Virus record (IMG/VR): IMGVR_UViG_3300043100_000020
Coordinates: 1-32,120 of that record
DNA from: a virus
Length of the DNA: 32,120 nucleotides
Reading direction: 5' to 3' (one strand)
Under the pieces are notes generated by a model. The model made no database searches and was not told the DNA's origin. It saw nothing but the letters and a program-made list of their open reading frames with translations. The translations under genes and the position numbers were made by a program. Shown here in pieces: positions 6,641-32,004 of this stretch. The first letter of the stretch is position 1. The number at the start of each line of letters is the position of its first letter.

Positions 6641-7216
6641 GTGACATCAGGGCGGGAAAGCGGTGACGAGTGGTTCGGCGCGAACCTCCGCGCCGGGAGA
6701 GACCGGCTGGGCATCGGCCAGCGCGAGCTGGCACGCCTCATGACCGAGGACGGCCATGCGTGGTTCCAGTCGACCGTCGCCCGCGCCGAGGCCGGCCGCC
6801 AGGCGGTGCGCGTCATGGAAGCCGCGTCGCTGGCCCGCATCCTCGCGACCACGGTCGACATGCTGACCAGGCCCCCGCCCGAGACCGCGGCACTCATGAT
6901 GGCCGACCACGCTCTCGGGCGCCTGCACTCGGGCCGCGCGCAGGTGATCCGGTCGGTCGCGGCATACCTGCGCGCCAGGGACGGCGCCGTACGGGCGGTC
7001 AGTGCCGCGCAGGACAGCCCGTACGAGAGCGTCCGCGGCCAGGCCGCCGAGCTGGCCGCCGAGCTCGGCGAGGGCGGCCTCGACGAGGCGGTAGAGGACG
7101 GCATCTGGAAGTACGAGCACCCCGAGGGGGCCGAAGACGATGACGGAGACGGGACCGGGACCGAAGCGGACACGGAAAGCGAACCTGGAGTCGTGGGTCA
7201 GCCAGGTCCCGAATGA
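6641..7216 (+). CDS. XRE-type helix-turn-helix repressor (probable immunity repressor)
   Basis: A 191-aa protein, GTG start without a ribosome binding site. NLRAGRDRLGIGQRELARLM and FQSTVARAEAGRQAVRVMEA form an XRE-type HTH at about 14-60. The middle is helical and the C-terminal 30 residues are very acidic (EDDDGDGTGTEADTESEPG). It is divergent from the excisionase-like gene and overlaps the integrase gene by 77 nt in another frame, so repressor and integrase are probably made from one transcript. Context makes it the best candidate for the lysogeny repressor; peptidase motifs for self-cleavage are not seen. Confidence 0.75.
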   Translation: MTSGRESGDEWFGANLRAGRDRLGIGQRELARLMTEDGHAWFQSTVARAEAGRQAVRVMEAASLARILATTVDMLTRPPPETAALMMADHALGRLHSGRAQVIRSVAAYLRARDGAVRAVSAAQDSPYESVRGQAAELAAELGEGGLDEAVEDGIWKYEHPEGAEDDDGDGTGTEADTESEPGVVGQPGPE

Positions 7217-8618
7217 CCGCGGCTACTACGAGGCCAAGGTCTGGATGGGGATCAAGCCTGACGGGAAACCGGACCGCCGCCACCTCCAGCGCAAGTCCCT
7301 CCCTCAACTCAGGAAGGCGGTCCGCGTACTGGAGAACAGGCGCGACGCAGGCCAGGGCGGGAAACCCGGCAAGCTCCCCACCGTGGAGGAGATGCTCACC
7401 CGGCACCTGGCCGTCGTCCTGCCGGCCAAAGGGCGCGCCCCGCGCACGATCTCCGACTACTGGTCGAAGTGCCGCAACGACATCTTCCCCCGGTGGGGCG
7501 GCTGCCGCATCGACCGGCTGCTCCCCGAGTGGCTCGAGGACGGCTACGCCGACATGCTCGCCGCAGGCCACGCACCCTCGCACGTCGTCAAGGTCCACGT
7601 CATCCTCAGCTCCGCCTATAAGGTCCAGGCTGAGCGCTCCCAGAAGTACGGCCTCGCCGGCGGGACGGTCATCGTGAACCCGTGCGACTATGTCGACCCC
7701 CCCGAGCTGTCGGCGACAGAGAAGAAATCACTGACCAAGAGGCAGGCGCGGGCCGTCCTCGCCCAGGCGGAGAAAAGCGGGAACTGGCTCCGGTGGGCCT
7801 ATGGCATGTCGGTCGGCAACCGGCAGGGCGAGGTACTCGGGCTCCGCTGGGAGTACATGAACATCGACGTTCCCGAGGGAGAGCCCGGCGAGGCGAGGAT
7901 CTCCTGGCAGCTCCAGCGGCTCACCTGGGAGCACGGCTGCGCTGACGAGACGGAGAAGGCGCTGCGGAAGAAGGGGGCGGCCAGGGCCGAGACCGATAAG
8001 GCCGCGGCGAAACGGCGCCACGAGTGCGCGGCAAAGCACTGCAAGAAGAAACCGTGCCCGGCCAGGTGCAAGAAGCACACCAGGGCGTGCCCGTCGCCGT
8101 GCCCGGATGACTGCGAAAGCCACGCCCGCGACTGCCCGGACCGCAAGCTCCCGCAGGGCTGCGTCCCGGTGTCCGGTGCCCTCGTGCTGCGCGAGATCAA
8201 GGAGAAGCGCCGCGCCAGGGTCAAGACCGTCCCCATCCCCCCCGAGCTGTGCGCGCCGTTCCGTGAGCACCGGGAGAAGCAGTTCGAGGCGAAGATGCTC
8301 GCCGGATCCGAGTGGACGGAGCACGACCTCGTCTTCACCCGGTGGAACGGGAGCCCGGTCGACCCGCGGCAGGACTGGGAGGAGTGGAAGCGGCTGCAGG
8401 AGGCCTCGGGCGTCGCGCACCGCGGCGTCCACGGCACCCGGCACACCGCCGCGACCCTCGCCGTCGATGAAGGGGTCGCGATCACGGTCGTCAAGGAGAT
8501 GCTCGGCCACTCCGACATCCGCGTCACGGAGGGTTACATCGAGACTGCGTCGCCTCAGGCGCAGCGGGCGGCGCGGACGATCGGGAAGGCTCTTTTCGGG
8601 AGGGACTCGGGGACGTGA
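7140..8618 (+). CDS. int: Tyrosine-type site-specific integrase
   Basis: A 492-aa phage integrase with ATG at 7140 and GAGGGGG about 10 nt upstream, inside the end of the repressor gene. It has an N-terminal arm-binding region, a core-binding domain (about 80-190) and a catalytic domain. Catalytic residues visible are Arg228 (GNRQGEVLGLRW), His431-x-x-Arg434 (HGTRHT), His457 (LGHSDI) and Tyr466 (EGYI). Between the first Arg and the HxxR box is an inserted Cys/His-rich stretch (about 294-341) with nine cysteines in CxxxxC and CxxxC spacings, probably metal binding. The attachment site follows 140 bp downstream. It should integrate the element into a tRNA-Thr gene. Confidence 0.95.
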   Translation: MTETGPGPKRTRKANLESWVSQVPNDRGYYEAKVWMGIKPDGKPDRRHLQRKSLPQLRKAVRVLENRRDAGQGGKPGKLPTVEEMLTRHLAVVLPAKGRAPRTISDYWSKCRNDIFPRWGGCRIDRLLPEWLEDGYADMLAAGHAPSHVVKVHVILSSAYKVQAERSQKYGLAGGTVIVNPCDYVDPPELSATEKKSLTKRQARAVLAQAEKSGNWLRWAYGMSVGNRQGEVLGLRWEYMNIDVPEGEPGEARISWQLQRLTWEHGCADETEKALRKKGAARAETDKAAAKRRHECAAKHCKKKPCPARCKKHTRACPSPCPDDCESHARDCPDRKLPQGCVPVSGALVLREIKEKRRARVKTVPIPPELCAPFREHREKQFEAKMLAGSEWTEHDLVFTRWNGSPVDPRQDWEEWKRLQEASGVAHRGVHGTRHTAATLAVDEGVAITVVKEMLGHSDIRVTEGYIETASPQAQRAARTIGKALFGRDSGT

Positions 8619-9491: not shown

Positions 9492-10040
9492 GACCTAAGC
9501 GGACGGGGGCGGGGCGCGGCGTCGGGTGATCAGCCCCCCTGCGTGAAGTTATTGCCGGGCATCCGCCGGTCCCGTCCGGCGGCTGACCTTCCGCCGGGCT
9601 GTCCGCGCCGTGCCTGGCGCCGGGCGTGCATACGGTCTTGGCGGGCGGGTTTAGCCCGGTGCGCTGTGCTCGGGCTGGCCTCTCCGTCCCGAGGTCCGGT
9701 GCTTGCCCTGCGGTTCCCGCGCTGTCCGTAGCCCCTCCCGGTGTCATCCGGTACTCACTGCGGCTTGCGGCTAGGATAGCGCGGTGCCGGGCCAGTCGCG
9801 GCGCGCCCGGCATCGCTTCGCGGTGTGCGGGGGAACAGGGTCTCGTTACGGTTTCGAGCACCGGCCAGCACGTGTCCGCCGCGAGCGGGGGCTGAACACC
9901 CATCCCTTAGCGTTCCCCCTGGTGGGATCCTTGACCCGGTGGCCCTGCGCCCGGAATCGCTGGCAACTGCGCAGGCTGCCTGGATTAGCTTTCACCAGCG
10001 CGCGTTCCGGGCGGTGGTGACTAGTACAGCCACCGGTTCG
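9492..10040. other. 549-bp stretch without a convincing gene
   Basis: Short frames exist on both strands but with mixed third-position use and no good starts. The best candidate is a plus-strand frame from GTG 9784 to 10020 (78 aa, very Arg-rich) preceded by TAGGAT six bases before the GTG; it lacks a -35 match. A hairpin CCGCCGG-tcccgt-CCGGCGG lies near 9570 and could end leftward transcription coming from the tRNA side. The region may hold an untranslated RNA or a control segment. Confidence 0.4.
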
Positions 10041-10114
10041 TGGCGCGAGCGGGATTTGAACCCGCGACCTACAGGTTATGAGCCTGCCGAGCTGCCGAAC
10101 TGCTCTACCGCGCT
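10041..10114 (-). tRNA. tRNA-Met (CAT) with initiator-type features
   Basis: A complete 74-nt cloverleaf can be folded: acceptor AGCGCGG/TCGCGCC, D arm GAGC/GCTC, anticodon arm GCAGG-CTCATAA-CCTGT, T arm GCGGG-TTCAAAT-CCCGC, discriminator A. CCA is not encoded. Initiator hallmarks: bases 1 and 72 do not pair (A and C), pair 11:24 is A:T, 2:71 G:C, 3:70 C:G and 4:69 G:C as in formylatable initiators. Only two of the three G:C pairs next to the anticodon are present (A29:T41 replaces the third). It lies at the downstream end of the leftward gene array. Confidence 0.85.
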
Positions 10115-12779: not shown

Positions 12780-13318
12780 CGGCCGACCTCCTCATCATCT
12801 ACCTCGGTTCCAGGGAGGACGCGCCCCTCATCTCCAGCATCCAGCGCGCACCGGTGACAAGTTGCCGGGTCACCGGGGATGAAATCCGGATGACTGTGAC
12901 CGGCCTCGGGGACCGGCGGTTCAAGCCCCAGGCCGGCCGCCGCCGCGAACGCCTGCGCCACGGCGCGTTTATGCGCACGGCCGAAACCGCCCAGCGCGAA
13001 CTGGTCCTCCCCCAGCGCCACGGCGAAGTCGAGGATGCGCAGCTCTGAAGAGGACGCGGGCAGCGGCCGGTCCTGGCCTTTGCGCCGGTAGCCGCGGTCG
13101 ATGAACTCGCGGGCCTCCTCCCAGTTGATGCGGGCGATAAGGCCGGGCGCGTACTGGGTGATACATGCGGACTTGAAGTCAGGGCGGCGCAGCCATGTCT
13201 CGTGCCAGATCAGCAGTTCGACGGCTGCCCGCTCGTGGTCTGTCCTGCCGCGCGCCCAGCCCCGGAGGCCCTTGGCGAGATCCTCGGGGCCGATCTCGGC
13301 CACCTTGTTGTTGTCCAT
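12776..13318 (-). CDS. Hypothetical protein (180 aa)
   Basis: ATG 13318 has AGAGGA 6 nt upstream; the longer frame to 13603 overlaps the real upstream gene and is rejected. It starts MDNNKVAEIGPEDLAKGLRG, is mostly helical, and contains WEEAREFIDRGYRRKGQ. A C-terminal CHRCALDAGDE gives one CxxC with nearby His (GHSHPDF), possibly one zinc site. No family is assigned. Confidence 0.65.
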   Translation of the reverse strand: MDNNKVAEIGPEDLAKGLRGWARGRTDHERAAVELLIWHETWLRRPDFKSACITQYAPGLIARINWEEAREFIDRGYRRKGQDRPLPASSSELRILDFAVALGEDQFALGGFGRAHKRAVAQAFAAAAGLGLEPPVPEAGHSHPDFIPGDPATCHRCALDAGDEGRVLPGTEVDDEEVGR

Positions 13319-13337
13319 CGCTAGTCCTCTTCCGCCG

Positions 13338-13622
13338 TCAGAACGGCGCTTCGCAGTCGCATTTGCCGCCGTCATGGTCTTCGGCCAGGTGCTTCTCCAG
13401 GTGCGCCGCCCATGCCGCGTCGATCTCAGCCTGAGACGGGGGCGGGCAGTCGCATGCCGCCCCGGCATGGATCTCCTCGCAGTGGTTCGCGTACAAGATC
13501 GCGTCCCAGTCGGGCTCGCGGGGCTCGCGCTGGGTGCCGTCCGGGTTGATGTAACCCATCGCCACGCTGTCTTTGTATTCCTCGTAGCGGTCATCGCCGT
13601 CATCGTCGTAACCGGTGCTCAC
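13338..13622 (-). CDS. Acidic Cys-containing protein (94 aa)
   Basis: GTG 13622 lies 3 nt after the stop of the STAS gene. The start is very acidic (STGYDDDGDDRYEEYKD), and the C-terminal half has NHCEEIHAGAACDCPPP and HDGGKCDCEAPF: Cys/His pairs likely to bind a metal. Unknown function. Confidence 0.65.
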   Translation of the reverse strand: MSTGYDDDGDDRYEEYKDSVAMGYINPDGTQREPREPDWDAILYANHCEEIHAGAACDCPPPSQAEIDAAWAAHLEKHLAEDHDGGKCDCEAPF

Positions 13623-13625
13623 CGT

Positions 13626-13994
13626 TCACTCCTCTCCCTCCATGACGGTCAGCTCAGCGACCGCCTCTTCAACGGTCGCGCGGATCATGAAGACCCTCTC
13701 CAGCCCGCTGGCGGCGAACATGGCCGCCAGGTGCGAGCCCTCCCGTATCACCAGGGTGACCCCTCCGTCATGCCTGCGGGCGCGGCTGAGCGCCCCGACG
13801 ATGACGCCGAGGCCGATGGAGTCCGCGTACGGGACAGCTGACAGGTCCAGGACGAGGAAGTGCCGGCCTGCGGCTATCAGGCTGATGGTCAGGGTCCGGA
13901 GGGCCGGGGCGGTTCCGGCGTCGAGGTCCCCCCGGACGGTGATGACCTCTGCGGGGCCGGAGGGGTAGTGGGTGGGGGCGGTCACGGCGCGCAT
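13626..13994 (-). CDS. STAS-domain protein, anti-sigma factor antagonist-like
   Basis: A 122-aa protein from ATG 13994, which lies inside the end of the 43-aa Cys-rich gene. VITVRGDLDAGTAPALRTL, LVLDLSAVPYADSIGLGVIV and LERVFMIRATVEEAV follow the STAS fold. Ser59 in ADSIGLG is at the place phosphorylated in SpoIIAA/RsbV-type antagonists (DSxGLG). These proteins free sigma factors by binding anti-sigma kinases. A phage copy could redirect a host stress or development sigma factor. No kinase gene is in the window. Confidence 0.85.
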   Translation of the reverse strand: MRAVTAPTHYPSGPAEVITVRGDLDAGTAPALRTLTISLIAAGRHFLVLDLSAVPYADSIGLGVIVGALSRARRHDGGVTLVIREGSHLAAMFAASGLERVFMIRATVEEAVAELTVMEGEE

Positions 13995-14113
13995 TTCTCG
14001 CCATCCTCGATGCACATGCAGCCATCGAGGTCGTCCTCGTCGTTGTGTACCCAGCCGTCCCAGGTCTGCTTGATCTCGTGCGAGCAGGTGAAGCACCACT
14101 TATCGGTCCACAT
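13982..14113 (-). CDS. 43-residue Cys-rich protein
   Basis: A small frame that overlaps both neighbours: its ATG lies in the end of the 116-aa gene and its TGA lies past the STAS start. It begins MWTDKWCFTCSHEIKQTW and ends CMCIEDGEKCAP. CxxC, CxC and a final Cys with one His suggest a single zinc site. Its exact fit between two genes supports translation. Confidence 0.55.
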   Translation of the reverse strand: MWTDKWCFTCSHEIKQTWDGWVHNDEDDLDGCMCIEDGEKCAP

Positions 14114-16487: not shown

Positions 16488-16781
16488 TCACGGCCTGAAC
16501 GACCCGTCGGGCACGACCTCGGCAAGCTTCCGCGCCTCCCGCCCCCGCTCGCACTGCCTGCGCCACGCCAGGTCCTCGATGCTCATCGACGGCGGCCGGG
16601 TCTTCTCCTCGGCGCGGACGAGGACCTCTTCCAGCGTCTCGCCGCCGAAGCTCCTGCCGCAGAACGGGTTGCCGAACTGGCCACGCGGCCACCACAGGAC
16701 CAGCGGGCCGTCGCCGCCCTGGTGGATGCGGGCGACTCCCCGCGCGTTCAGGCGCCGCCATGCACGGTCGGCGGGAGTCAC
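16488..16781 (-). CDS. Hypothetical protein (97 aa)
   Basis: GTG 16781 overlaps the TGA of the upstream CGHC gene. VLWWPRGQFGNPFCGRSFGG and ETLEEVLVRAEEKTRPPSMS are the most distinctive parts; the rest is charged and helical. No family is recognised. It is the last gene of the 22-16.5 kb array and meets the plus-strand regulator head-on. Confidence 0.6.
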   Translation of the reverse strand: MTPADRAWRRLNARGVARIHQGGDGPLVLWWPRGQFGNPFCGRSFGGETLEEVLVRAEEKTRPPSMSIEDLAWRRQCERGREARKLAEVVPDGSFRP

Positions 16782-17011
16782 GGAGCACTTCCGCACTCGG
16801 CGCACAGCCAGCAGCCGTCACCATCGGCGCGGATCTGGTCACCGGCCTTGATGTCCTCCCAGCACCCGGAGCACATGCCGGGATGGCCCGCAGTGATCCA
16901 GGGACCGTAAACGCCGGGTTCGGCGGACTCCTTCTCAAGCCTCTTCTCCGCTCCGGTGCAGTGGCCGCACTGATCTACCAGGAGGTCTGTGAGGTCGCAG
17001 CGCACCGTCAT
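16778..17011 (-). CDS. CDLTDL/CGHC zinc protein, copy 3 (77 aa)
   Basis: ATG 17011 (GGGGAGG 4 nt upstream) overlaps the stop of the methyltransferase-like gene (ATGA). The N-terminus RCDLTDLLVDQCGHCTGAE is nearly identical to two other genes at 18.8 and 20.3 kb. After it come MCSGCWEDIKAGDQIRAD and WLCAECG, a second treble-clef-like ribbon. Zinc binding is likely; the partner may be the protein encoded next to each copy. Confidence 0.75.
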   Translation of the reverse strand: MTVRCDLTDLLVDQCGHCTGAEKRLEKESAEPGVYGPWITAGHPGMCSGCWEDIKAGDQIRADGDGCWLCAECGSAP

Positions 17012-18366
17012 GCCGCCTCCCCATCCCGGCCGCACGCAAGCGCCTTGAAGATGCCGGGGAATTCCAGGTGCCAGTGGAAGAACTGGTGCTGCCGTTTCAG
17101 GTCCGCGAGAACGGCTTCAGCTTCCGGGGACAGCTGCCCTCCGGCGGCGATGTGCAGGAGCGTCCCCGTGGTCACGGGCTCGGCGTTCCCGTCGTGAGGC
17201 CACATGAATGCCGCGCACCATGCGTCGGCGACACGCTTGGCGAGTCGCACCGGGGCCGCGTCCTCGAGTATCCGGTGCGCTATCGCCGGAGTAGGAGCGG
17301 CGAGCGCGCAAGCGCGTGCCTCGTCCATCCTTGCCGGCGCGTCCATGGCGGCCGGCAGCCCGTTCAGCATCGCCTGCCGCTCTGCCTTGTTCTTGCGCCG
17401 CGCTGCCGTGACGAGCTCCCGGCGGTCCCCTCCGATGACCGTGTACGCCTTGTCGGGGATGCCCTTGGCCAGCAGCGCGGGCGTGGACCCGATCAGGGCA
17501 TTGCCGCACTTGACGTGATGCCCCAGGTACGGGCTGGGGAGCCCGGGAACGTAGGCTTCGGCGGCCAGGACCAGGCGGGTGAGGTCGACCGTAAGCGGAT
17601 TCAGGTCGACGGCGTGGATCAGCTCCGTAATCACGTCGCGCCGGGCTCTGGGAAGTTCTTCTTCGATGCTGCGGTCGTGGCCTGCCCGGAACATCGCGAG
17701 GTGCCAGGCGATGAGGCGGGCTGCCCGGAGCGGGAAGATCCCGGCCCCGCACGCCGGGTCGCAGACAGTCAGCTCCTGGAACGCTTCTTCCGGGGTGCCC
17801 GGCATTATCCGGGGGGCCGTATATCGCGTTCCGTTGCCGCTGCTCACCAGCGGCGCGTCGCGGACGCCGCCGTCGGCGGTCAGCGCCTCCAGGATCTGCG
17901 GCAAGAGGGTGGTCTGGAGCAGACGGTCGACTAGCTCGGGGTTGGTGTAGAAGGAGCCGGTCTTCTTCCGGAGGTAGCGGGTTCCCAGGTCACTGCACAC
18001 TGCCCCGGCAGCCGCCGCCTCCGTGACGCAGCACCTGGTGTCGTGCGCCGCACACCAGTGGCGCCCGGCGAAGTCGATGCCCCGCGGGCAGGTGGCCAGG
18101 ACTGCCAGCACCCGGGCCATCGCTGTCAGCACCGCTTCCCCGTCGCTGGTCTCACCGAAAATGGCCTTGTCGGCGGAGCACGCGATGATGTCGGCATCTC
18201 CGCTGAGATCATCCGCTGACACGCCGGACGCTGTGGCCTTCTCCACGGCCGCTTCCAGGCGCTCGCCGAAGTCCTCGCGGATGGCGATCAGGTCGGGGTC
18301 TCCGGCGCTGGCAAGAGGGTCGTCTGCTAGCCGGAGGACAAGCAGCTGACCGCGTGGTTCGCTCAC
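17008..18366 (-). CDS. N6-adenine methyltransferase-like protein lacking the catalytic NPPY/F motif (452 aa)
   Basis: GTG 18366 overlaps the upstream TGA. Residues 80-113 hold a module, ATCPRGIDFAGRHWCAAHDT, shared with two neighbours. Then come SFYT (138), DPACGAG (203-209, SAM motif I), AVDLNP (252-257) and CGNALIG (287-293), as in Eco57I/PglX-like gamma-class enzymes. It ends at FFHWHLEFPGIF (429-440), where large relatives continue straight into the NPPF/W catalytic motif. No [DNS]PP[YFW] is present, so it should bind SAM or a partner but not methylate by the usual chemistry. The ending coincides with an ATGA overlap, so it is a stable gene boundary rather than a random break. Confidence 0.8.
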   Translation of the reverse strand: MSEPRGQLLVLRLADDPLASAGDPDLIAIREDFGERLEAAVEKATASGVSADDLSGDADIIACSADKAIFGETSDGEAVLTAMARVLAVLATCPRGIDFAGRHWCAAHDTRCCVTEAAAAGAVCSDLGTRYLRKKTGSFYTNPELVDRLLQTTLLPQILEALTADGGVRDAPLVSSGNGTRYTAPRIMPGTPEEAFQELTVCDPACGAGIFPLRAARLIAWHLAMFRAGHDRSIEEELPRARRDVITELIHAVDLNPLTVDLTRLVLAAEAYVPGLPSPYLGHHVKCGNALIGSTPALLAKGIPDKAYTVIGGDRRELVTAARRKNKAERQAMLNGLPAAMDAPARMDEARACALAAPTPAIAHRILEDAAPVRLAKRVADAWCAAFMWPHDGNAEPVTTGTLLHIAAGGQLSPEAEAVLADLKRQHQFFHWHLEFPGIFKALACGRDGEAA

Positions 18367-18812
18367 AGGAGCCCTCCAGCCATTGTCAGGTCATCGATGA
18401 GCGGCGGAACGTCCAGAGGCTCCCCGTGGATGTCCCTGAGCCAGGTGACTTCGACGGAGCTGGTCCGGGAGCTGAACCGCGGGTGTCCCGGCGGGCGCAT
18501 CACCAGCTCACCGTCGTCGCGGACGCCGGCGTCCCAGTGCACCTCGGCAGCGATCGACGGGATGCGGCGCTCCTTGCCGAACTGGCGTCGCTGAAGTTCC
18601 CGCGGCGTCGGCGGATCCTCATGGTCGGTCTCCTTGTGCAGGAACGGCAGGCAGCGGCCCTTCAGGCCCCGTTCCCACGCCTCGACGTTCACCTGCTCGG
18701 GCAGGTATCCGCAGTAGTCCCCGGCACGCTCCTGCGCGGCCCGCGCCTCGGCCCCGGTGCAGTGGCCGCACTGCTCGACGAGGAGGTCAGTAAGGTCGCA
18801 GCGCTCAGCCAT
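18363..18812 (-). CDS. CDLTDL/CGHC zinc protein, copy 2, with extended C-terminus (149 aa)
   Basis: ATG 18812 overlaps the upstream TGA (TGATG). It begins MAERCDLTDLLVEQCGHCTG, the shared module, then has about 110 residues not present in the other copies (DYCGYLPEQVNVEAWERGL, HWDAGVRDDGELVMRPPGHP). That tail might be a separate DNA- or protein-contacting part. Stop overlaps the next start (GTGA). Confidence 0.7.
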   Translation of the reverse strand: MAERCDLTDLLVEQCGHCTGAEARAAQERAGDYCGYLPEQVNVEAWERGLKGRCLPFLHKETDHEDPPTPRELQRRQFGKERRIPSIAAEVHWDAGVRDDGELVMRPPGHPRFSSRTSSVEVTWLRDIHGEPLDVPPLIDDLTMAGGLL

Positions 18813-19363
18813 CACAGGAGTCCCGTCGTCGAGACTGTCGTGACCCTGCGCGGCAGTTCCGTCTTCTCGTCGCCCCACTCGCCGCATTCGCCGTTATGCG
18901 CCCGGTAGCAGCCGTTACGCTGCCACGACTCCGCTGGGCAGGTGCACCATCCGGGCTGGCCAGGGCAGCGCGGGCAGCCGGGGTGCGGGCAGGCGCACCA
19001 GTGCTGCCCGGCGAACGTGACTCCGCCGGGCTGGCAGGCCAGCACCGCGAGCCCGCGGGCGAGGAAGTTGAAGACCTCGCCGGGGCTGTACGTCGCCTGG
19101 CCGCGAGCACAGACGGGGCACCTGCTCGCGGCACGATCCTCGGCGGTGACGGCAGGCGGGTGCGCCTCATGCGCGGCCAACTCCTTAGCGCCGTGGCCGA
19201 ACCTGACCGACGAACCGTACTGGAGGGTGTCACCCTGGCTCCCGACCGCGCTGCTGCACGTCTTCGCGATCTGCTGCCGGATTTCAGCGGGCAGCCCCCG
19301 GACCTCCTCGATGTACAGCGGGACGATCGCCTCCAGGCTGCCGGTGAGCACGTCGTCATTCAC
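18812..19363 (-). CDS. Stand-alone PGG-HW module protein, Cys-rich (183 aa)
   Basis: GTG 19363 overlaps the sigma-like gene's TGA. A helical N-terminus (LPAEIRQQIAKTCSSAVGS) is followed by RCPVCARGQ, then LAVLACQPGGVTFAGQHWCA and a dense Cys stretch (CPHPGCPRCPGQPGWCTC). The PGG-x-x-F-x-G-x-HW core matches the N-terminal parts of the two methyltransferase-like proteins, but here no methyltransferase core follows. At least 12 cysteines point to several zinc sites. Confidence 0.7.
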   Translation of the reverse strand: MNDDVLTGSLEAIVPLYIEEVRGLPAEIRQQIAKTCSSAVGSQGDTLQYGSSVRFGHGAKELAAHEAHPPAVTAEDRAASRCPVCARGQATYSPGEVFNFLARGLAVLACQPGGVTFAGQHWCACPHPGCPRCPGQPGWCTCPAESWQRNGCYRAHNGECGEWGDEKTELPRRVTTVSTTGLL

Positions 19364-20166
19364 GCAGATTCCCCTTCCCTGTGCGCTTTCGCCGCGTACC
19401 GCGCCCGGTTGTAGGCGTTGTGCGCCTCGCGGCACCCGCACCCCTCCGTGGACTCCCCGCGCTTCTGGTGCGCCCAGTAGCCCTTTTTCGTCCCGCACGG
19501 GGGACGGGTGCCCTCGCGGGGCGCGCGGGAGAACACGCGCTTGTCGAGCCGCCACATCCGGGACGGCTCCTCCCCCTCATGCCAGAGGGCGAAGAACGCC
19601 TTGCGGGCGCGGCTGATCAGGGCCGTGAATGTGTCCGGCGTGATCCCGGCCATCTCCGCCGCGAGTGCGTAATCCCCTGTCGCGGCCAGGGCGTTGAACG
19701 CATCCCGCTGCCGGGGCGTCAGGGCCTTCATGATCTGGGTGACCGCGAGGCCATCCGTCAGCTGATCCTCCGGGGACCGGGCCACGCCGGCATGCTGGTA
19801 CCAGTACACGGCGAACCTGGAGCCGTCGTTGGCCGAGTCGGTGCGGGCGCCCCGGTGGCGCATCTGGTCCCGCACCTCACGGGCCACGGCGAGCCGTCCG
19901 GCTTCCAGGAGATCCCGTTCGCGGGGCGGCTCCTTCGCGGCGCACAGGTGCTCAGCGATGCCTTCCCATGCGGTGTCGTGCTGGTCGCCGCGGTCGCCTG
20001 CCGGCCACCAGTGCAGGTTGTTGCGCACGACCCGGGCTGCGAGATCATCCAAGGCGGCCAGCGTGTAGCCATGCAGCGGGTCGCGAGCGCCGTTGCATGC
20101 CGGTTCCGGGCCTGCGGCCTGCGCCGGCAACGGGTAATACGTGAGCTGCCTGCTGTACCTGCTCAC
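19360..20166 (-). CDS. Sigma-region-4-like protein with C-terminal CGT zinc motif, copy 2 (268 aa)
   Basis: GTG 20166 overlaps the TGA of the 35-aa CGHC peptide. It opens with SRYSRQLTYY, nearly the same as the next paralogue. Residues 149-195 (LTPRQRDAFNALAATGDYAL, then AAEMAGITPDTFTALISRAR) are a sigma-70 region-4-type HTH. The C-terminus CGTKKGYWAHQKRGESTEGC with GCREAHNAYNR is a Cys/His motif that I recall in actinobacterial mobile elements. No region 2 is visible, so it is probably a DNA-binding regulator, not a full sigma factor. Confidence 0.75.
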   Translation of the reverse strand: MSRYSRQLTYYPLPAQAAGPEPACNGARDPLHGYTLAALDDLAARVVRNNLHWWPAGDRGDQHDTAWEGIAEHLCAAKEPPRERDLLEAGRLAVAREVRDQMRHRGARTDSANDGSRFAVYWYQHAGVARSPEDQLTDGLAVTQIMKALTPRQRDAFNALAATGDYALAAEMAGITPDTFTALISRARKAFFALWHEGEEPSRMWRLDKRVFSRAPREGTRPPCGTKKGYWAHQKRGESTEGCGCREAHNAYNRARYAAKAHREGESA

Positions 20167-20270
20167 GAGACCGGCCTCCGGATGGCCGCCGCTGCGATCC
20201 TCTCCTCGACCCTGGTGCAATGACCGCACTCGGTGACGATCAGGTCGGTGAGGTCACAGCGGTCAGCCAT
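20163..20270 (-). CDS. CDLTDL/CGHC peptide, copy 1 (35 aa)
   Basis: ATG 20270 overlaps the TGA of the paralogous sigma-like gene (TGATG). The whole product is MADRCDLTDLIVTECGHC followed by TRVEERIAAAAIRRPVS. The last eight residues repeat the tail of the methyltransferase-like protein ending at 21049 (AAAIRRSVS), and each tail is followed by a sigma-like gene. It seems to be the minimal form of the module, made by a duplication that brought the tail along. Confidence 0.65.
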   Translation of the reverse strand: MADRCDLTDLIVTECGHCTRVEERIAAAAIRRPVS

Positions 20271-21052
20271 CAGGCAGCCTTCCGTGCCTTGCGGCGCTCC
20301 GATTGCGCGGCCTGGCATTCCGCGCAGTTCTCGCGGCGACGCCAGTGCCGGAAATACGCCGCCTCCGTCCCGCACGGGCGAAGAACCCGCGACGACTCGC
20401 CGCTCACCGGACCCCGCACCAGGCTGGCGGGCGGTTCGGTGCCCTCATGCCACAGCGCGGCGAACCGGCGGCGCGCGGACGCGATGGTCACCCCGAACGT
20501 CTTCACCGTGATCCCCATTGCCCGCGCGGCATCCTGGTGGTCCTCGTAGGCGGCCAGTGCTTCCAGGGCCTCGCGCTGGCGCGGGGTCAGACGCGGCCAG
20601 ATCTGGGCGACCGCCAGCCGGTCGGTGACGATCTCCTCGGGCGAGCTGGCGTGCGCCGGGTTGTTCCAGTACTTCACCCACTTAGGCGCGCTGCCCGGCC
20701 CCCACGCAGACGTGGAGCCGTAGTCGCGGTAACCATGCTGGCGCATCTCCTCGCGCGCGAGGTCGCGGGCGGCATCCATCCCGGCGCGGGCCAGATCCTG
20801 CCATGACGGCGCGAGCGGGGAGGTCAGGATCAACTCGCAGATCGCGTGCCACGCCGCGTCGTAGGCGTCGGTTGTGTCGCGGGCGGTGAATCCGCGGAGC
20901 CTGGCGAGGCTATAGCGGGCGGCGTTGTCGATCTTGTCGAGAGTCCAGCCGTGAAGAGCGTCAGCACGCTGCTCCGGTTCAGTCCCGGGCTCGGGGCCCG
21001 TTCCGGCGCGCGGGTCGTCCCAGTAGGTGAGCTGGCGGGAGAAGCGGCTCAC
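20270..21052 (-). CDS. Sigma-region-4-like protein with C-terminal Cys motif, copy 1 (260 aa)
   Basis: GTG 21052 overlaps the upstream TGA. Starts SRFSRQLTYW; HTH at about 155-200 (RLTPRQREALEALAAYEDHQ, ITVKTFGVTIASARRRFAAL). The ending CGTEAAYFRHWRRRENCAEC with QAAQSERRKARK is the same Cys/His tail as in copy 2. The two proteins align along their whole length but differ at most positions, so the duplication is old. Likely a transcription regulator for the array or for host promoters. Confidence 0.75.
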   Translation of the reverse strand: MSRFSRQLTYWDDPRAGTGPEPGTEPEQRADALHGWTLDKIDNAARYSLARLRGFTARDTTDAYDAAWHAICELILTSPLAPSWQDLARAGMDAARDLAREEMRQHGYRDYGSTSAWGPGSAPKWVKYWNNPAHASSPEEIVTDRLAVAQIWPRLTPRQREALEALAAYEDHQDAARAMGITVKTFGVTIASARRRFAALWHEGTEPPASLVRGPVSGESSRVLRPCGTEAAYFRHWRRRENCAECQAAQSERRKARKAA

Positions 21053-21996
21053 GAGACCGACCTCCGGATAGCGGCTGCCGCACTGAGGGTCTCCTGGACA
21101 TGCTGGCGGTTCAGCATGTCCGGCCAGCCCGGCGGAGGGTCGATGTGCCCCTTGATGAGCTGCTCGACGTCACGGATGCCGAGCAGTGAGTCACCCTGGA
21201 CGATGGTGAGCTCGGCCGGCACCGGCACCGTGGGTGCCATGAGCGCGAGGGTGAGCCGCGCCAGTTCCACCGACGTCTGGTCGATGTCGACACCGTAGAA
21301 GCAGCGGATGACGAGCCTGCGCGCCGCCATGGTAAGCGGGTCGCGGCTGTCCAGCGGCGGGAACTCGCTGCCGGGTGCCAGGCGTGCGGGGGCGGGAACC
21401 GGCGGGGGCGTGCCGTCAGCCTCGTACCGCCACGCCTCCGCCAGGCGCCCGGCGAGGTAGCGCACGCCTGCGATGAGGAACACGCCCGAGCCGACGGCGA
21501 TGTCCGCGATACGCAGGTCAAGGATGGCGCTGCTCGGGACGAGCCGCCACGTCGACCGGTCGGCGGTCTCCAGCGGTCCCGGCAGGTACACGAGGGGCTC
21601 GATCGCGCCGAGCGTGACCCTCTCGGCCAGGTTGCGGGGCGTGAAGTACGCGCCCTTCGCCTCGCGCTGGTCCAGGCCCGTCAGGGACAGCTCGCCCGGA
21701 CCCGGGCAATCCTTGTGGTCGCCGTGGTGCCAGTGCAGGCCGCCGAACTTCACGCCGCCCGGACGGCATGCGAGGATCGCTAGCCCGCGGGTGACGGCGT
21801 CCGCCACGTCGGCGTGCCCTGGCTCGTCCTCCGGCGGCTTCTTCGGCACGGGGGTGAACAGGACGTCGGCGGCGGAGGCGATAAGGTCGGCGCACTCCTC
21901 GGCCGCGACGATCCGTTCCGGGACCGGGAGTGCGGCCATGGCGGGGATCAGGTCCGGGACCGCACCGAGCGCGTCCCTGAGGATGGCGGCGCTCAC
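21049..21996 (-). CDS. N6-adenine methyltransferase-like protein lacking the catalytic motif (315 aa)
   Basis: GTG 21996 overlaps the upstream TGA. Residues 70-98 contain the shared module (LAILACRPGGVKFGGLHWHH). Then AYFTP (116-120), ADIAVGSGVFL (motif I, 164-174), YGVDIDQTSVELARL (from 234) and GDSLLG (268-273), in the order seen in very large actinobacterial N6-adenine methyltransferases. The protein stops about 40 residues later, before any NPPY/F. It is a second, independently shaped SAM-binding half-enzyme. The AAAIRRSVS tail is shared with the 35-aa peptide. Confidence 0.8.
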   Translation of the reverse strand: MSAAILRDALGAVPDLIPAMAALPVPERIVAAEECADLIASAADVLFTPVPKKPPEDEPGHADVADAVTRGLAILACRPGGVKFGGLHWHHGDHKDCPGPGELSLTGLDQREAKGAYFTPRNLAERVTLGAIEPLVYLPGPLETADRSTWRLVPSSAILDLRIADIAVGSGVFLIAGVRYLAGRLAEAWRYEADGTPPPVPAPARLAPGSEFPPLDSRDPLTMAARRLVIRCFYGVDIDQTSVELARLTLALMAPTVPVPAELTIVQGDSLLGIRDVEQLIKGHIDPPPGWPDMLNRQHVQETLSAAAAIRRSVS

Positions 21997-24638: not shown

Positions 24639-24883
24639 TGGCCGGCCTCGATCCCGGCGCGCTCAAGGATGCGCTGCGCCTCGTCCGCGGTGACGATCGC
24701 GTGACGCCACCCCTCCGGGTCGCGCTCGCCGACGATCCCCAGCGCGGCCAGCTGGTCCAGCAGCCCGGCGGCAGCCGCGAAACCTACACGGACCTTCCGC
24801 TGGATCAGCGCAGCACCCGCCCGGCGTTCCGTGACGGCCACCTTGGCGGCGGCGCGGAGAAGGTCAGGGTTGCGGATCTCCAT
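24635..24883 (-). CDS. FtsK gamma-like winged-helix protein, copy A (82 aa)
   Basis: ATG 24883 in TGATG overlap. GAALIQRKVRVGFAAAAGLL then DQLAALGIVGE matches the DNA-binding gamma domain of FtsK/SpoIIIE (S/A-LLQR-R-x-x-x-GY-x-x-A-x-x-L-x-x-LE-x-x-G-I-V-G). No motor domain is attached. Copy B at 29670-29960 has almost the same DNA. It may bind FtsK-orienting sequences or act as a small repressor. Confidence 0.75.
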   Translation of the reverse strand: MEIRNPDLLRAAAKVAVTERRAGAALIQRKVRVGFAAAAGLLDQLAALGIVGERDPEGWRHAIVTADEAQRILERAGIEAGQ

Positions 24884-24911
24884 CAGGCTTCCCCGATCCC
24901 GGCGCGCTGGC
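24649..24911. repeat. Repeat R1, left copy
   Basis: About 263 bp, matching 29726-29988 at an offset of 5077 with about six mismatches, five of them clustered. Covers most of the FtsK-gamma-like gene and the end of the gene before it. Confidence 0.9.
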
Positions 24912-25440
24912 GCCACCCGGCGAAACGTGCGCGCATCGCGGGCGTCAGGTCATAGCGGACGGTGTGCTCAAAGTCCGCCAGGACCTCGGTGAGGAGGGAG
25001 CGGAGCTCGCGCGTCTCGGCCATCGCGGCGTCCAGTCCGGGGGCGGCCTCCACCGGATCGCCGGGGACGCCCGGCGGGCGGCCCGCGGCCTCCGCCGTGA
25101 CCCCGGCCTGCTCGGCGATATTGATGGCAGCCCACCGGGCGGCAGAGTCGTCCGTCCCCTCATACAGGGCGGCGAGCATCCCGGCCGCTGCCGATTCGGC
25201 GGCGTCGGGCGCGGGTCCGGTCAGGTGCTTATCCAGCCATCCTGACCACAGGACCGTCCCGTCGTCCTCGGTGATGGTGACATGCTCTTCGGTGCCGACA
25301 TCCCGCAGCAAGTCGGTGCTGGTCATGATCACGTCGCGGATGCCGGCCGCGCCGTTCGCGAGAGACTCGCGGATCGCCGCGCCCGCGTACTCGTCTAGGT
25401 CGTCGGTCGTGGCGCCCTTGACGCTGGTGCGCATTTTCAC
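24883..25440 (-). CDS. Hypothetical acidic helical protein (about 185 aa)
   Basis: GTG 25440 (GTGA overlap) or ATG 25434, two codons later. Acidic, Ala-rich: MRTSVKGATTDDLDEYAGAA, VTITEDDGTVLWSGWLDKHL, ELRSLLTEVLADFEHTV. The ending WRQRAGIGEA is shared with the gene at 29960-30307, which has the same position relative to the other FtsK-gamma-like copy. No known domain. Confidence 0.6.
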   Translation of the reverse strand: MKMRTSVKGATTDDLDEYAGAAIRESLANGAAGIRDVIMTSTDLLRDVGTEEHVTITEDDGTVLWSGWLDKHLTGPAPDAAESAAAGMLAALYEGTDDSAARWAAINIAEQAGVTAEAAGRPPGVPGDPVEAAPGLDAAMAETRELRSLLTEVLADFEHTVRYDLTPAMRARFAGWRQRAGIGEA

Positions 25441-25649: not shown

Positions 25650-25676
25650 TCTGGTGATCTCCTTGCGGTTGCCCGT

Positions 25677-25705
25677 GTCCCTGGCCGCTACCTCCGGCCA
25701 GGGAC
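25677..25705 (-). terminator. GC hairpin in the leader of the small membrane gene
   Basis: An 11-bp stem (GTCCCTGGCCG / CGGCCAGGGAC) with a 7-nt loop, about 30 nt before GTG 25649. Either a weak terminator or a stabilising/processing element; the same hairpin core is at 30786-30810. Confidence 0.5.
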
Positions 25706-25826
25706 GCGGGACGGGTGGTTACGGGCGCCTGGCGGCCGGGCGGGCGTCGTCGGCTGCCAGGGCGAGGTCGTAGAGGCGCGTCCACTCGGCGGGGTTCAGG
25801 GCCTCCGCGTCGTCCTCCAGGGATGC
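25679..25826. repeat. Repeat R2, left copy
   Basis: 148 bp matching 30786-30933 at an offset of 5107 with two mismatches. Contains the hairpin and the C-terminal codons of the 31134-type gene. Confidence 0.9.
25719..25826 (-). pseudogene. C-terminal remnant of a 31134-type gene
   Basis: Codes SLEDDAEALNPAEWTRLYDL and AADDARPAARRP to a TAA, the same tail as the intact gene at 30826-31134, but the first two thirds are missing and no start is present. It follows the lipoprotein gene by 21 nt, in the same frame after that gene's TAA. Left behind when other genes replaced the body of the copy. Confidence 0.75.
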
Positions 25827-26992: not shown

Positions 26993-27011
26993 GCGGCGCT
27001 TCCCGCGCCGC
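26993..27011 (-). terminator. GC hairpin between genes
   Basis: GCGGCGC-TTCCC-GCGCCGC, a perfect 7-bp stem immediately after the stop at 27012 and 36 nt before ATG 26956. Confidence 0.5.
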
Positions 27012-27121
27012 TCAGGGACCCTCCCGGAGGACGGGCATCTCCCCGGAGTGCCGGGCCTCCTCGATCGCGGCGAGCACCGCGGCTTTCCCCCGCGCGGCGA
27101 CTTCCGCCCCCGTCGCGGGCC
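27006..27121. repeat. Repeat R3, left copy
   Basis: 116 bp identical to 32005-32120 (offset 4999); the match runs to the window edge. It covers the C-terminal part of the 27012-27350 gene. Confidence 0.9.
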
Positions 27122-27350
27122 GCAGTACCGGCCTGCGGGCCGCGTTCCTCAGGTCCGCAGGCTCACCGTCCGGGTCATGGATGAGCCGCCACACCTCGGC
27201 GGTGACGTCCAGCGGGTGCCAGGTGGCACCGACAGCGGCAGTGATCGCCTTGCGGAGGTCGTCAGGGTCCCAGTCGGCGCGCATCGCGCAGGCGAAGTCC
27301 ACCAGGAGCCCGGGGGGAGGGGGGCGGACCGGGTCCGGGGTACCGGTCAT
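27012..27350 (-). CDS. Hypothetical protein (112 aa)
   Basis: ATG 27350 overlaps the methyltransferase stop (ATGA). Pro-rich start, then FACAMRADWDPDDLRKAITA, EVWRLIHDPDGEPADLRNAA and AAVLAAIEEARHSGEMPVLR. Helical and soluble. The end of an identical gene is seen at the right edge of the window. Role unknown. Confidence 0.65.
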   Translation of the reverse strand: MTGTPDPVRPPPPGLLVDFACAMRADWDPDDLRKAITAAVGATWHPLDVTAEVWRLIHDPDGEPADLRNAARRPVLRPATGAEVAARGKAAVLAAIEEARHSGEMPVLREGP

Positions 27351-28825
27351 GACGCCTCCAGGCCGAACAGGCCCGGCTGTACCGGCTTGGCCAGCCGGAC
27401 GCGGGTGAGCGCCAGGGCGTCCGGATCTTTGTCGATCAAGACTGCGTCGAAGCCCTCCAGGATCGCGGCCTCACCGGTCGTGCCGGTACCGCAGAAGGGA
27501 TCGAGGACCGTGCCGCCGGGCGGTGTCACCAGCCGGGCAAGCCAGCGCATCAGCTCGACGGGCTTGACGGTCGGCCAAGCAGTGCCGTCCTCGAGGCGGG
27601 GACGCTCGGATGCCGGGGCCTTCGCCTGGTAGCGGAACACCGGGAAAAAGCGGGACGCGCCTCCGGTGTCGCCGAAGTGAAGGGTTTCCTGTCCGGTCGG
27701 CTGCCAGCCATCGTCGTTCATGACCCCGAGGGCGGTGCGACGCATCCGGCCGCCCTGGGAGGTGGACACCCCGCTCTGCCGGTCCAGCTCGGCTACCGGG
27801 CAGCCGTCTGCGCAGTCCCACGCCTCGACGGTCTCCATGCCATCAGCGTCGGCATGGGAGCCTGGGGCGTCGTCACTGATCGTTCCGTAGACGTCGCTGG
27901 CGGCGCGGGGAGTTGTTCCGCGCGATGGCCCATGTGCGGCAGGGCGCACCCGCCGCATCCCGGTCATCTCGCACCCCGGAGAGTGGCTCAGCAGGATGTT
28001 TCCCGGCCAGCGGCCCGCGTCGTGTGCCTTTCCTGCGGTCATGGCGAAGTCCATCGCGCGGGTCCGGTTCTCGTCGTGTCCCCGGTCGCCGGATGCGTTG
28101 CGGGCGTAGTCGGGATCCGTGACGGAGACGCGGCAGCCGTCGATGTTGAGCGCGCCGGTCCCGTGCTCCAGGACGTTGGCCGCGACGGTCTTCCCGGCGA
28201 GAGGCTTACGGGCCACGACGATCGGCTCGTGAGCCGGTTTGAGTGCGGTGCCCCATCCGTCCCAGCGGGCAGCGTCCTCGGTGGCGGGCGCGGTCTGCGC
28301 GGGAACGAACTCACGCCCGTCGTCCTTGGCCCACTGTCCGGTCCGGTTCTGGGTCGCGCCGGGGATCATCCGCTTGAGGGGTGTGCCCGTCGCGGTGATT
28401 TCGCGTTCCGCGCCGGCCATCCGGTCGATAGCCTTGGACACATCATGCGATTTCGGAAATCCTTGGCCAAATACCCATGAAATGCTGTCGCGGATCTCAA
28501 ATCCGGCGATGCGGATCGAGAGCGTCATCAGGTCCACGGTGCGCGGGCCGGCGAACGCGAGCAGGTGGCCGCCAGGCTTGAGGACCCGCAGGCACTCGTC
28601 CCACACACCGGGTGGCGGGACGAACTTGTCCCACTCGCGGCCCATGAAACCGCGCCCGTCCGGGACGTGGGTCCGGTCGCCCGCCATCCACGCCGCGATC
28701 GCCTTGAGCACCATGGCCGTGGGCAACTCGGCCAAGCCGTACGGAGGATCGCAGACGACAGAATCCACGCTTGCGTCCGCCATCGGCAGGTGCGCGGCGT
28801 CCCCGCGCAGGATGACCGCGCTCAC
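27347..28825 (-). CDS. Site-specific DNA methyltransferase, beta-class order (N4-C or N6-A)
   Basis: A 492-aa protein from GTG 28825, overlapping the D12-class gene. VVCDPPYGLAELP puts catalytic DPPY at 26-29. VLKPGGHLLAFAGPRTVDLM follows, then a long variable part with target-recognition function expected, GRWPGNILLSHSPGCE, and near the end LDPFCGTGTTGEAAI (442-451), the SAM motif. DPPY before FxGxG is the beta-class order. It probably modifies the phage genome and protects it from host restriction. No restriction endonuclease is adjacent. Confidence 0.88.
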   Translation of the reverse strand: MSAVILRGDAAHLPMADASVDSVVCDPPYGLAELPTAMVLKAIAAWMAGDRTHVPDGRGFMGREWDKFVPPPGVWDECLRVLKPGGHLLAFAGPRTVDLMTLSIRIAGFEIRDSISWVFGQGFPKSHDVSKAIDRMAGAEREITATGTPLKRMIPGATQNRTGQWAKDDGREFVPAQTAPATEDAARWDGWGTALKPAHEPIVVARKPLAGKTVAANVLEHGTGALNIDGCRVSVTDPDYARNASGDRGHDENRTRAMDFAMTAGKAHDAGRWPGNILLSHSPGCEMTGMRRVRPAAHGPSRGTTPRAASDVYGTISDDAPGSHADADGMETVEAWDCADGCPVAELDRQSGVSTSQGGRMRRTALGVMNDDGWQPTGQETLHFGDTGGASRFFPVFRYQAKAPASERPRLEDGTAWPTVKPVELMRWLARLVTPPGGTVLDPFCGTGTTGEAAILEGFDAVLIDKDPDALALTRVRLAKPVQPGLFGLEAS

Positions 28826-29673
28826 GCTGACTCCAGGTCGAACAGGCTCCCCTGGGGGAACGGCCGGTTGGACCAGATGACCTCGGTACGCGCCGTGCTG
28901 GTCCCGTTGCCCGCCACGCCCGCCAGCTCGGCGCGGTGCCACCCGTCGTACAGCTCACCGTAAAGCGGGCTGTCGTAGCCGGGCACGACGACTGCCGCCC
29001 GGGCGTCGCGCAGCGACCGGGCCAGCTCGCGGTGCTCGTCATCAGTGCGCAGCTCATGGGCGTAGTCCGGTCCCCGGCACCGGCCCTTGTTCAGAGTTCG
29101 CACCGAGGCGAGGTACGGCGGGTCCGCGTAGATCAGGACACCGCCGTGGCGGCCGTAGCGTTCGATCAGCTCAGCAGCGGGACGGCATTCCAGCGAGACG
29201 GCCCGCAGCCGCTCGGCGGCGGCGCCCATGCGGCCGATGTACGAGCCGAGGTAGTCCGGCATCGATGACGAGCCTGACCCTCGCGGGTCCTGGTAGTGCC
29301 GCCATCCGCTGCTCACGGGCGGGAGGTGGCCGGCGCGGCCCTGCGTCAGCAGCACCCAGACCTTCCGCGCCCGCTCAAGATCATCTCCGTCGAGGGTGCG
29401 GGCGTTCTCATGCTCGGCCCGCGAGTGGGGGGTCAGCGCGCAGACCCGCTCCAGATCACCCGGGCGGTCGCGGAGTACCCGCCAGAAGCACATCAGGTTG
29501 CCGTCGAGATCGTTGACGGTTTCCATCGGTGACCGTTTCTTGGCCAGCAGCACCGCGAGGCTCCCGGCGAACGGCTCCACGTAGTGCTCATGCGGCGGGA
29601 GAAGCGCGGCGATCTTCTCCGCGATGGCCAGCTTGCCGCCGAAATATGTAAAGGGGGGCTTGAGGCTGGTCAT
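28822..29673 (-). CDS. D12-class (Dam-like) adenine-N6 DNA methyltransferase
   Basis: A 283-aa protein starting ATG 29673 in ATGA overlap with FtsK-gamma copy B. FTYFGGKLAIAEKI (from 8), YVEPFAGSLAVLL (31-43, SAM site) and IYADPPYLASV (DPPY 184-187) are the three marks of the family, in alpha order. Length is usual. It overlaps the second methyltransferase by GTGA, so both are made together. Recognition sequence unknown; GATC is typical for Dam itself but not implied here. Confidence 0.9.
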   Translation of the reverse strand: MTSLKPPFTYFGGKLAIAEKIAALLPPHEHYVEPFAGSLAVLLAKKRSPMETVNDLDGNLMCFWRVLRDRPGDLERVCALTPHSRAEHENARTLDGDDLERARKVWVLLTQGRAGHLPPVSSGWRHYQDPRGSGSSSMPDYLGSYIGRMGAAAERLRAVSLECRPAAELIERYGRHGGVLIYADPPYLASVRTLNKGRCRGPDYAHELRTDDEHRELARSLRDARAAVVVPGYDSPLYGELYDGWHRAELAGVAGNGTSTARTEVIWSNRPFPQGSLFDLESA

Positions 29674-29960
29674 GACGGCATCTCCAGGACCATCTGGGAA
29701 AGGCGGCGGGCGGCGGCCTCGTCTCCGATCCCGGCGCGCTCAAGGATGCGCTGCGCCTCGTCCGCGGTGACGATCGCGTGACGCCACCCCTTACGGTCGG
29801 GTTCGCCGACGATCCCCAGCGCGGCCAGCTGGTCCAGCAGCCCGGCGGCAGCCGCGAAACCTACACGGACCTTCCGCTGGATCAGCGCAGCACCCGCCCG
29901 GCGTTCCGTGACGGCCACCTTGACGGCGGCGCGGAGAAGGTCAGGGTTGCGGATCTCCAT
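29670..29960 (-). CDS. FtsK gamma-like winged-helix protein, copy B (96 aa)
   Basis: ATG 29960 in TGATG overlap. The first 75 residues are nearly identical to copy A (differences at A/V13 and in ERDPEG versus EPDRKG). The C-terminus is different and longer (GIGDEAAARRLSQMVLEM). The winged helix is intact, so both copies should bind similar DNA. Confidence 0.75.
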   Translation of the reverse strand: MEIRNPDLLRAAVKVAVTERRAGAALIQRKVRVGFAAAAGLLDQLAALGIVGEPDRKGWRHAIVTADEAQRILERAGIGDEAAARRLSQMVLEMPS

Positions 29961-29988
29961 CAGGCTTCCCCGATCCCGGCGCGCTCGC
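29726..29988. repeat. Repeat R1, right copy
   Basis: Partner of 24649-24911, about six mismatches in 263 bp, direct orientation. Confidence 0.9.
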
Positions 29989-30307
29989 GCCACCATGGCA
30001 TCTGGCGAGGCTCCCAGCAGCTCTCGTCGATCGCCCGGAGTACCTCGGCGAGCAGGGCGCGCAGCTCACCCGCGTCGTTGCGGGCAATATCGCGGTCAAT
30101 CGTCAGCTGGGCAGCACGGGCGCGTTCGGCCCGGATGTCTGCGGGCTGCGCGACGTCGATAGCAGCCTGCGCCCCCGCCTCCCAGTCGGCGCGGCTTCCC
30201 TCGTTCATGGTGTCCCACGCCGGCGTGAGTCCGGTACCGAGGCGGACGACGGACTTCGCCGTCAGTCTCGCCTCGTAGGCGGCGCGGCCAGGTGACGTCT
30301 CGGTCAT
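29960..30307 (-). CDS. Hypothetical protein (115 aa)
   Basis: ATG 30307 in ATGA overlap. Helical: RAAYEARLTAKSVVRLGTGL, SRADWEAGAQAAIDVAQ, GELRALLAEVLRAIDESCWE. The last part (ELRALLAEVL ... RERAGIGEA) resembles the end of the 24883-25440 protein, while the N-terminal parts are unrelated: a mosaic pair produced by the 5-kb duplication. Confidence 0.6.
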   Translation of the reverse strand: MTETSPGRAAYEARLTAKSVVRLGTGLTPAWDTMNEGSRADWEAGAQAAIDVAQPADIRAERARAAQLTIDRDIARNDAGELRALLAEVLRAIDESCWEPRQMPWWRERAGIGEA

Positions 30308-30751: not shown

Positions 30752-30785
30752 GCGTGGTTCCTGGTCTCCTAGTGGTTGTCCGTGC

Positions 30786-30810
30786 CCCTGGCCGCTACCT
30801 CCGGCCAGGG
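30786..30810 (-). terminator. GC hairpin in a gene leader (R2)
   Basis: CCCTGGCCG, 7-nt loop, CGGCCAGGG, between the stop at 30826 and ATG 30751; AGGAGA lies between hairpin and start. Confidence 0.5.
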
Positions 30811-30933
30811 ACGCGGGACGGGTGGTTACGGGCGCCTGGCGGCCGGGCGGGCGTCGTCGGCTGCCAGGGCGACGTCGTACAGGCGCGTCCACTCGGCGGG
30901 GTTCAGGGCCTCCGCGTCGTCCTCCAGGGATGC
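30786..30933. repeat. Repeat R2, right copy
   Basis: Partner of 25679-25826, two mismatches in 148 bp, same orientation. Confidence 0.9.
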
Positions 30934-31986: not shown

Positions 31987-32004
31987 GGGTTTCCGGGCGG
32001 CCCC

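Follow-up and report, generated by a model that had tools for sequence, protein, structure and literature searches.

The DNA analyzed here, called the window, is a 32,120-base IMG/VR virus record with a G+C content of about 70%. It encodes a tyrosine integrase (7140–8618, plus strand), an excisionase-like protein (6263–6511, minus strand) and a tRNA-Met (10040–10114). A near-identical record of 68.8 kb, L004, extends into ORFs that, read by eye, resemble those for terminase, capsid, tape-measure and GH25-lysin proteins, and also contains a 1254-aa ORF. Because of the integrase and the excisionase-like protein, together with the structural and lysin-like ORFs of L004, we take the window to be a piece of a temperate siphophage with an actinobacterial host. 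When another related contig, L002, is compared with the window, 73 of the 88 differences fall within a single kilobase (13000–14000), forming a sharp mosaic boundary.

Eight genes occupy the minus strand from 21996 to 16778, with each overlapping its neighbor by 1 or 4 nt. In order, they encode MTase-A (21996–21049; 315 aa), which consists of a PGG module (residues ~8–98) followed by a DrmMI-type SAM-binding lobe (residues 100–315); sigma-A (21052–20270; 260 aa), a putative ECF-like sigma factor (regions 2 and 4) with a CGT cysteine tail; CGHC-C (20270–20163; 35 aa), a chimera of a CGHC N terminus and a copied MTase-A end; sigma-B (20166–19360; 268 aa), a paralog of sigma-A with the same type of tail; a PGG-only protein (19363–18812; 183 aa), the partner of sigma-B; CGHC-B (18812–18363; 149 aa); MTase-B (18366–17008; 452 aa), in which a PGG module precedes a DrmMI/type IIG-type lobe that stops short of motif IV; and CGHC-A (17011–16778; 77 aa), which combines a CGHC finger with a C-terminal zinc ribbon. 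All eight frames are open, and a coding GC pattern was seen where checked, in MTase-B and both sigma genes. An initial annotation had described this stretch as eight overlapping genes assembled from three recurring modules, and both the coordinates and the short overlaps are borne out.

The initial annotation had also noted that a sigma-like protein occurs twice. Sigma-A and sigma-B are full-length paralogs, 40% identical from end to end (E = 2e-46), and their N-terminal halves recur as well as the HTH. Matches to Sigma70_r4_2 (8e-4 for sigma-A and 2.7e-3 for sigma-B) are both under the Pfam cut-off, which a Murinocardiopsis relative exceeds (32.7 vs 25.7 bits), and no sequence profile for sigma region 2 matches either window protein. 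An AlphaFold model built from seven sequences (pLDDT 68, pTM 0.38) has its helices in the right order. Among the PDB fold matches listed for this model, almost all from rank 2 onward are solved sigma factors, including SigH, SigL, WhiG, RpoE and CnrH, with probabilities of 0.9–0.99 and a best E value of only ~0.02; the best PDB chains for the sigma profile are CnrH and SigC. The two proteins are candidate ECF-like sigma factors. Since region 2 has no profile match and the region-4 scores are below the cut-off, the assignment of the N-terminal half depends on a model of modest confidence. The CGT/HGT cysteine tail resembles a common add-on of actinobacterial proteins (phrog_12112 and HNH-associated tails), and we set it aside as a component of a system. 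A single-protein scan of IMG/VR with sigma-A returned no relative. Sigma genes of this family occur without PGG in Nocardiopsis and Murinocardiopsis; Murinocardiopsis flavida has ten paralogs, and no PGG gene was found in its genome.

The PGG module is a helical N-terminal domain that ends in LARGLAxLAxxPGGVxFxGxHWC, often followed by H..C. It had been recognized by eye in three proteins of the block, and a profile built from eight sequences, all from outside the window, picked exactly these three (1.7e-23 for the PGG-only protein, 2.9e-12 for MTase-A and 1.5e-11 for MTase-B), with the next best of 325 six-frame window stretches scoring 0.25. The shared PGG…HW module is a real homology. It matches no family in Pfam, PHROG or NCBIfam, a fold search gave no PDB relative and nothing usable, and no match was found to the known anti-sigma families and folds ZAS, NepR, FlgM and RsbW. 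The PGG-only protein is 54% identical to the PGG protein of a phage contig, L056, in which the PGG and sigma genes overlap. One other candidate PGG gene (L059), a weak tblastn match in a structural region, was left out of all counts.

Outside the window, it is the pairing of these two genes that recurs. At 14 loci, spread over genomes of Actinomycetes, plasmids of Streptomyces and contigs of other phages, a sigma gene touches or overlaps a PGG gene, and both gene orders occur. A sigma-led search found relatives in three Streptomyces plasmids and the IMG/VR contig L011, all of which touch or overlap a PGG gene, while a PGG query found L056, where sigma is followed by an overlapping PGG gene in an apparent structural region. 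One genome contains the series PGG-sigma-PGG. Beside the pair in one of the Streptomyces plasmids (L014, 6188–8761) lies a phage-type DNA methyltransferase with what appears, by eye, to be an intein-like insert.

Is this pairing more than coincidence? Among 395 Actinomycetes genomes, PGG is present in 4 and sigma in 11, and three of the four PGG genomes carry sigma, compared with 11 of 395 overall (p = 6e-5). The two genes are adjacent in two of these three genomes and 3.2 kb apart in the third, which also has a sigma remnant abutting PGG. In one order, represented by 260 genomes, PGG occurs in 19, sigma in 38 and both in 7, so that sigma is found in 7 of 19 PGG genomes versus 38 of 260 overall (hypergeometric p = 0.011). 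The distance between the two genes is ~70 bp or less in five of the seven double genomes, which chance would not yield in genomes of 6–10 Mb. These data support a real, non-random association of sigma and PGG. About one third of PGG genomes have an adjacent sigma gene and about two thirds have none within 1.5 kb, and each gene is often found alone. Since many genomes have one gene without the other nearby, neither needs its partner everywhere. Partners also seem to have been exchanged, because sigma and PGG pairwise distances are weakly correlated across 14 pairs (Mantel r = 0.25, p = 0.02), which suggests that they are exchangeable.

The other two PGG modules of the window precede methyltransferase sequences. 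The lobes of MTase-A and MTase-B are related to each other (24% identical, 3e-10). From residue 100 onward, MTase-A matches the PADLOC DrmMI model (4.4e-53) and is 47% identical to a Rhodococcus ruber DrmMI, whose gene lies in a plasmid-borne drmD-MTase-drmA locus. For MTase-B, the matching models are DrmMI and type IIG (~1e-18), and the protein is 35% identical over 320 aa to a 1331-aa methyltransferase of Nocardioides plasmid pNOCA01. In that plasmid (L012, 299–7152), the homolog lies between genes for a DpdE-like helicase and McrBC-like proteins, which is not a standard DISARM operon. The initial annotation had called the window proteins headless methyltransferases, which is apt in one respect only. 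The catalytic motif IV ([NDS]PP[YFW]) is absent from all frames of the gene block, and MTase-B ends at FFHWHLEFPGIF, where its homologs reach NPPW within ~30 residues, but motif I is kept in both lobes (DIAVGSG and DPACGAG). Judged from these sequences, PGG is followed in both MTase-A and MTase-B by the SAM-binding lobe of a large N6-adenine methyltransferase, and the two proteins are predicted to be incapable of methylating alone. The only close relative of the lobes, in L002, differs at 1 of 1359 nt; a single-protein IMG/VR scan with MTase-A found no relative, and a PDB sequence search with MTase-B found nothing.

Split methyltransferases exist in other families, and a second polypeptide carrying motif IV could in principle complete these SAM-binding lobes, whose motif I is intact. 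However, the window has just two motif IV sequences on methyltransferase coding frames, at 28750 and 29124, and both lie in genes separate from the block. In five related contigs, including L002 and L004, no detached methyltransferase stretch with motif IV was found. An active split enzyme is the least probable arrangement that we considered. The separate genes (27347–29673) are two complete, mutually overlapping methyltransferase genes with DPPY.

Full-length homologs of MTase-A are present in 34 of the 395 Actinomycetes genomes, most with 1,350–1,500 codons, and in nearly all of them the match starts at residue ~100, past the PGG module. The fusion to PGG has been seen once outside the window phage, in a 397-aa protein annotated as a DNA methyltransferase on a plasmid of Amycolatopsis sp. 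FU40 (L080, 5980–7173). This protein has the same PGG and DrmMI-type arrangement (38% identity over 282 aa), so the fusion exists beyond the window phage. It differs in retaining motif IV as NPPY and has no sigma-like gene among the annotated neighbors tested. The two window copies are short forms of this PGG-methyltransferase fusion. At 28 further PGG loci, no methyltransferase was found (0/28).

Since the lobes derive from defense-type enzymes, a role in countering restriction, raised as speculation in the initial annotation, is possible. The PGG-methyltransferase halves could act as dominant-negative decoys on the SAM, DNA or partner surfaces of a host DISARM or type IIG system. The two lobes come from two different defense-type methyltransferases, and full-length MTase-A homologs do occur in Actinomycetes. 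We nevertheless regard decoy action as unlikely, as the Amycolatopsis fusion retains NPPY and so may methylate, and our literature search found no anti-DISARM protein of this kind. The resemblance to DISARM is itself partial: DrmMI is ~1340 aa in length, whereas MTase-A is 315 aa, carries PGG at its N terminus and lacks motif IV, a recognition domain and drmA or drmB neighbors, with no helicase-sized gene among the neighbors of the block (15.5–24 kb).

The third recurring element, RCDLTDLxVxxCGHC, is found at the three gene starts where it had been reported (20270, 18812 and 17011). Their similarity extends to the DNA level (91 nt, 65–77% identity), and the three starts are paralogous. CGHC-A matches phrog_28043 (2.6e-8); the zinc-ribbon proteins of phrog_28043 and phrog_1581 are like CGHC-A in the C-terminal ribbon, but its CGHC N terminus is outside the matched stretch. 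In two other contigs, L003 and L005, a CGHC finger precedes a zinc ribbon as in CGHC-A, in the absence of sigma, PGG and methyltransferase genes. A relaxed CGHC DNA pattern had no matches among 84,980 genomes and matched five IMG/VR contigs, one of which (L006) contains a candidate in-frame relative only. The CGHC fingers may be best pictured as independent zinc-finger genes that were merely shuffled into the block.

These distributions bear on the proposal, made when the block was first annotated, that all of its products form a single multi-subunit zinc/SAM/DNA-binding machine, speculatively for transcription takeover, with co-occurrence of the modules as the test. Part of this holds: all genes form one overlapping run, sigma and PGG associate, and as a two-gene pair they recur. 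The remainder is not supported, since the CGHC and methyltransferase genes do not travel with the pair, as the 28 PGG loci and the solitary CGHC genes of L003 and L005 illustrate, and many PGG and sigma genes occur separately. Moreover, sigma-B is broken in near-identical phage contigs, where it is reduced to its tail, and takeover of transcription in the strict sense is unlikely. A single machine is very improbable.

How did the block grow? A 58-nt direct repeat (78% identical; minus strand) spans the start of both sigma genes. Copy 1 (21024–21081) contains the 3′ end of MTase-A and the start of sigma-A, while copy 2 (20138–20195) contains the 3′ end of CGHC-C and the start of sigma-B. The sequence upstream of sigma-A is the MTase-A end (TLSAAAAIRRSVS), and its BLASTP alignment with R. 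ruber DrmMI (TLRSAADTRRKIA) marks this tail as native to the methyltransferase. Ahead of sigma-B, an MTase-A-type tail closes the 35-aa CGHC-C, whose last ~14 residues (including AAAAIRRPVS) are a copy of that end. The simplest reading of these sequences is that sigma-B arose when sigma-A was copied into a CGHC gene and brought the terminal stretch of MTase-A with it, in agreement with the expansion by duplication that the initial annotation proposed. In the near-identical contigs L002/L054 and L004, the repeat located at 27.0 kb is followed directly by the final portion of sigma-B, whose CGT tail is thus left without a sigma domain. MTase-A and sigma-A are missing from the existing parts of these contigs, which begin or end at the repeat, and may lie elsewhere in the genomes.

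Such rearrangements raise the possibility that the block is a shuffled set of accessory genes that do not work together: small actinophage modules accumulated through recombination at short repeats, among which the methyltransferase lobes and the CGHC-C chimera would be decaying fragments. The tail shared by MTase-A and CGHC-C at the sigma starts, the ending of both methyltransferases ahead of motif IV while the Amycolatopsis fusion is intact, the trimming of sigma-B and reordering of cassettes in sister contigs, and the occurrence of the modules apart from each other would all fit. However, decay does not readily account for eight open frames with 1–4 nt overlaps and, in MTase-B and both sigma genes, a coding GC pattern, nor for the preservation of motif I in both lobes. 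Shuffling also fails to explain why sigma-PGG adjacency recurs across many lineages in both orders. We consider this account possible but somewhat unlikely.

We favor a different reading, with decay and decoy action as its chief rivals, and assign it a probability of roughly 0.45: the block would be an accessory cassette with which a temperate siphophage controls transcription, having a sigma-PGG core and enlarged by local duplication. According to this model, the cassette would sit in the early region of the phage, and its core would be an ECF-like sigma factor and a small PGG protein. The sigma protein would bind host RNA polymerase and steer it to phage-linked or host promoters, and the PGG protein would bind the sigma protein and gate it, either as a co-sigma or an anti-sigma factor. 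We infer such gating by analogy with sigma genes that have an overlapping anti-sigma neighbor. In the window phage, the core unit has been duplicated, with the copy taking along the end of the neighboring methyltransferase gene. Fusion of PGG to SAM-binding lobes could give the partner a second binding surface, for SAM, DNA or a host methyltransferase complex. A more ambitious version is that PGG proteins are a new class of sigma-binding partners in actinobacterial phages and plasmids, and that fusion to inactive lobes links transcription control to blocking or sensing DISARM or type IIG systems; we consider this version a long shot.

As a kind, phage-borne sigma genes with a partner are known. 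Group 4 ECF sigma factors and their anti-sigma factors (SigH-RshA, BldN-RsbN and CnrH-CnrY) share with the window pair the two-domain layout, as judged from the model, a region-4 HTH, putative in the window proteins, and a partner gene that touches or overlaps the sigma gene. In contrast to these ECF sigma factors, the window proteins have an extra N terminus and a CGT tail, and their region 2 is unrecognized by sequence; PGG is outside the recognized anti-sigma families, and the paired form is mostly found in mobile elements. Bacillus phages also carry accessory sigma factors, of which a sporulation-like one is non-essential (PMC9429907). Like these, the sigma genes described here are phage-borne, and a sister contig has lost one sigma copy. 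However, the Bacillus phage proteins are SigF/G-like sporulation factors of Bacillota phages, whereas those of the window are ECF-like, belong to Actinomycetes and have a partner gene.

In the family libraries and papers searched, we did not find descriptions of the PGG partner family, its pairing and recurrence in mobile elements of Actinomycetes, or its fusion to DISARM-type lobes. Literature on anti-DISARM proteins and actinophage ECF sigma factors, from a search that mostly did not cover subscription papers, did not yield the arrangement of the window. Since PGG recurs beside a sigma-like gene across Actinomycetes mobile elements, it marks a testable regulatory pair whose members are annotated as hypothetical proteins, even though PGG is absent from three family libraries. 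The fusion of such a partner to halves of defense methyltransferases is unusual, and the pair may offer an entry point into the means by which phages of sporulating soil actinomycetes regulate transcription or defense in their hosts.

Finally, we note that the window contains two paralogous cassettes of ~2 kb between shared repeats. These repeats are a 269-nt sequence (24649–24917 and 29726–29994; 97% identical), which overlaps a gene resembling an FtsK-gamma winged helix, a 172-nt sequence (25655–25826 and 30762–30933; 96%) and a 120-nt sequence (27002–27121 and 32001–32120; 99%). In L054 the cassette blocks occur in another order, which would fit a region of cassette exchange or, alternatively, an ambiguous assembly.
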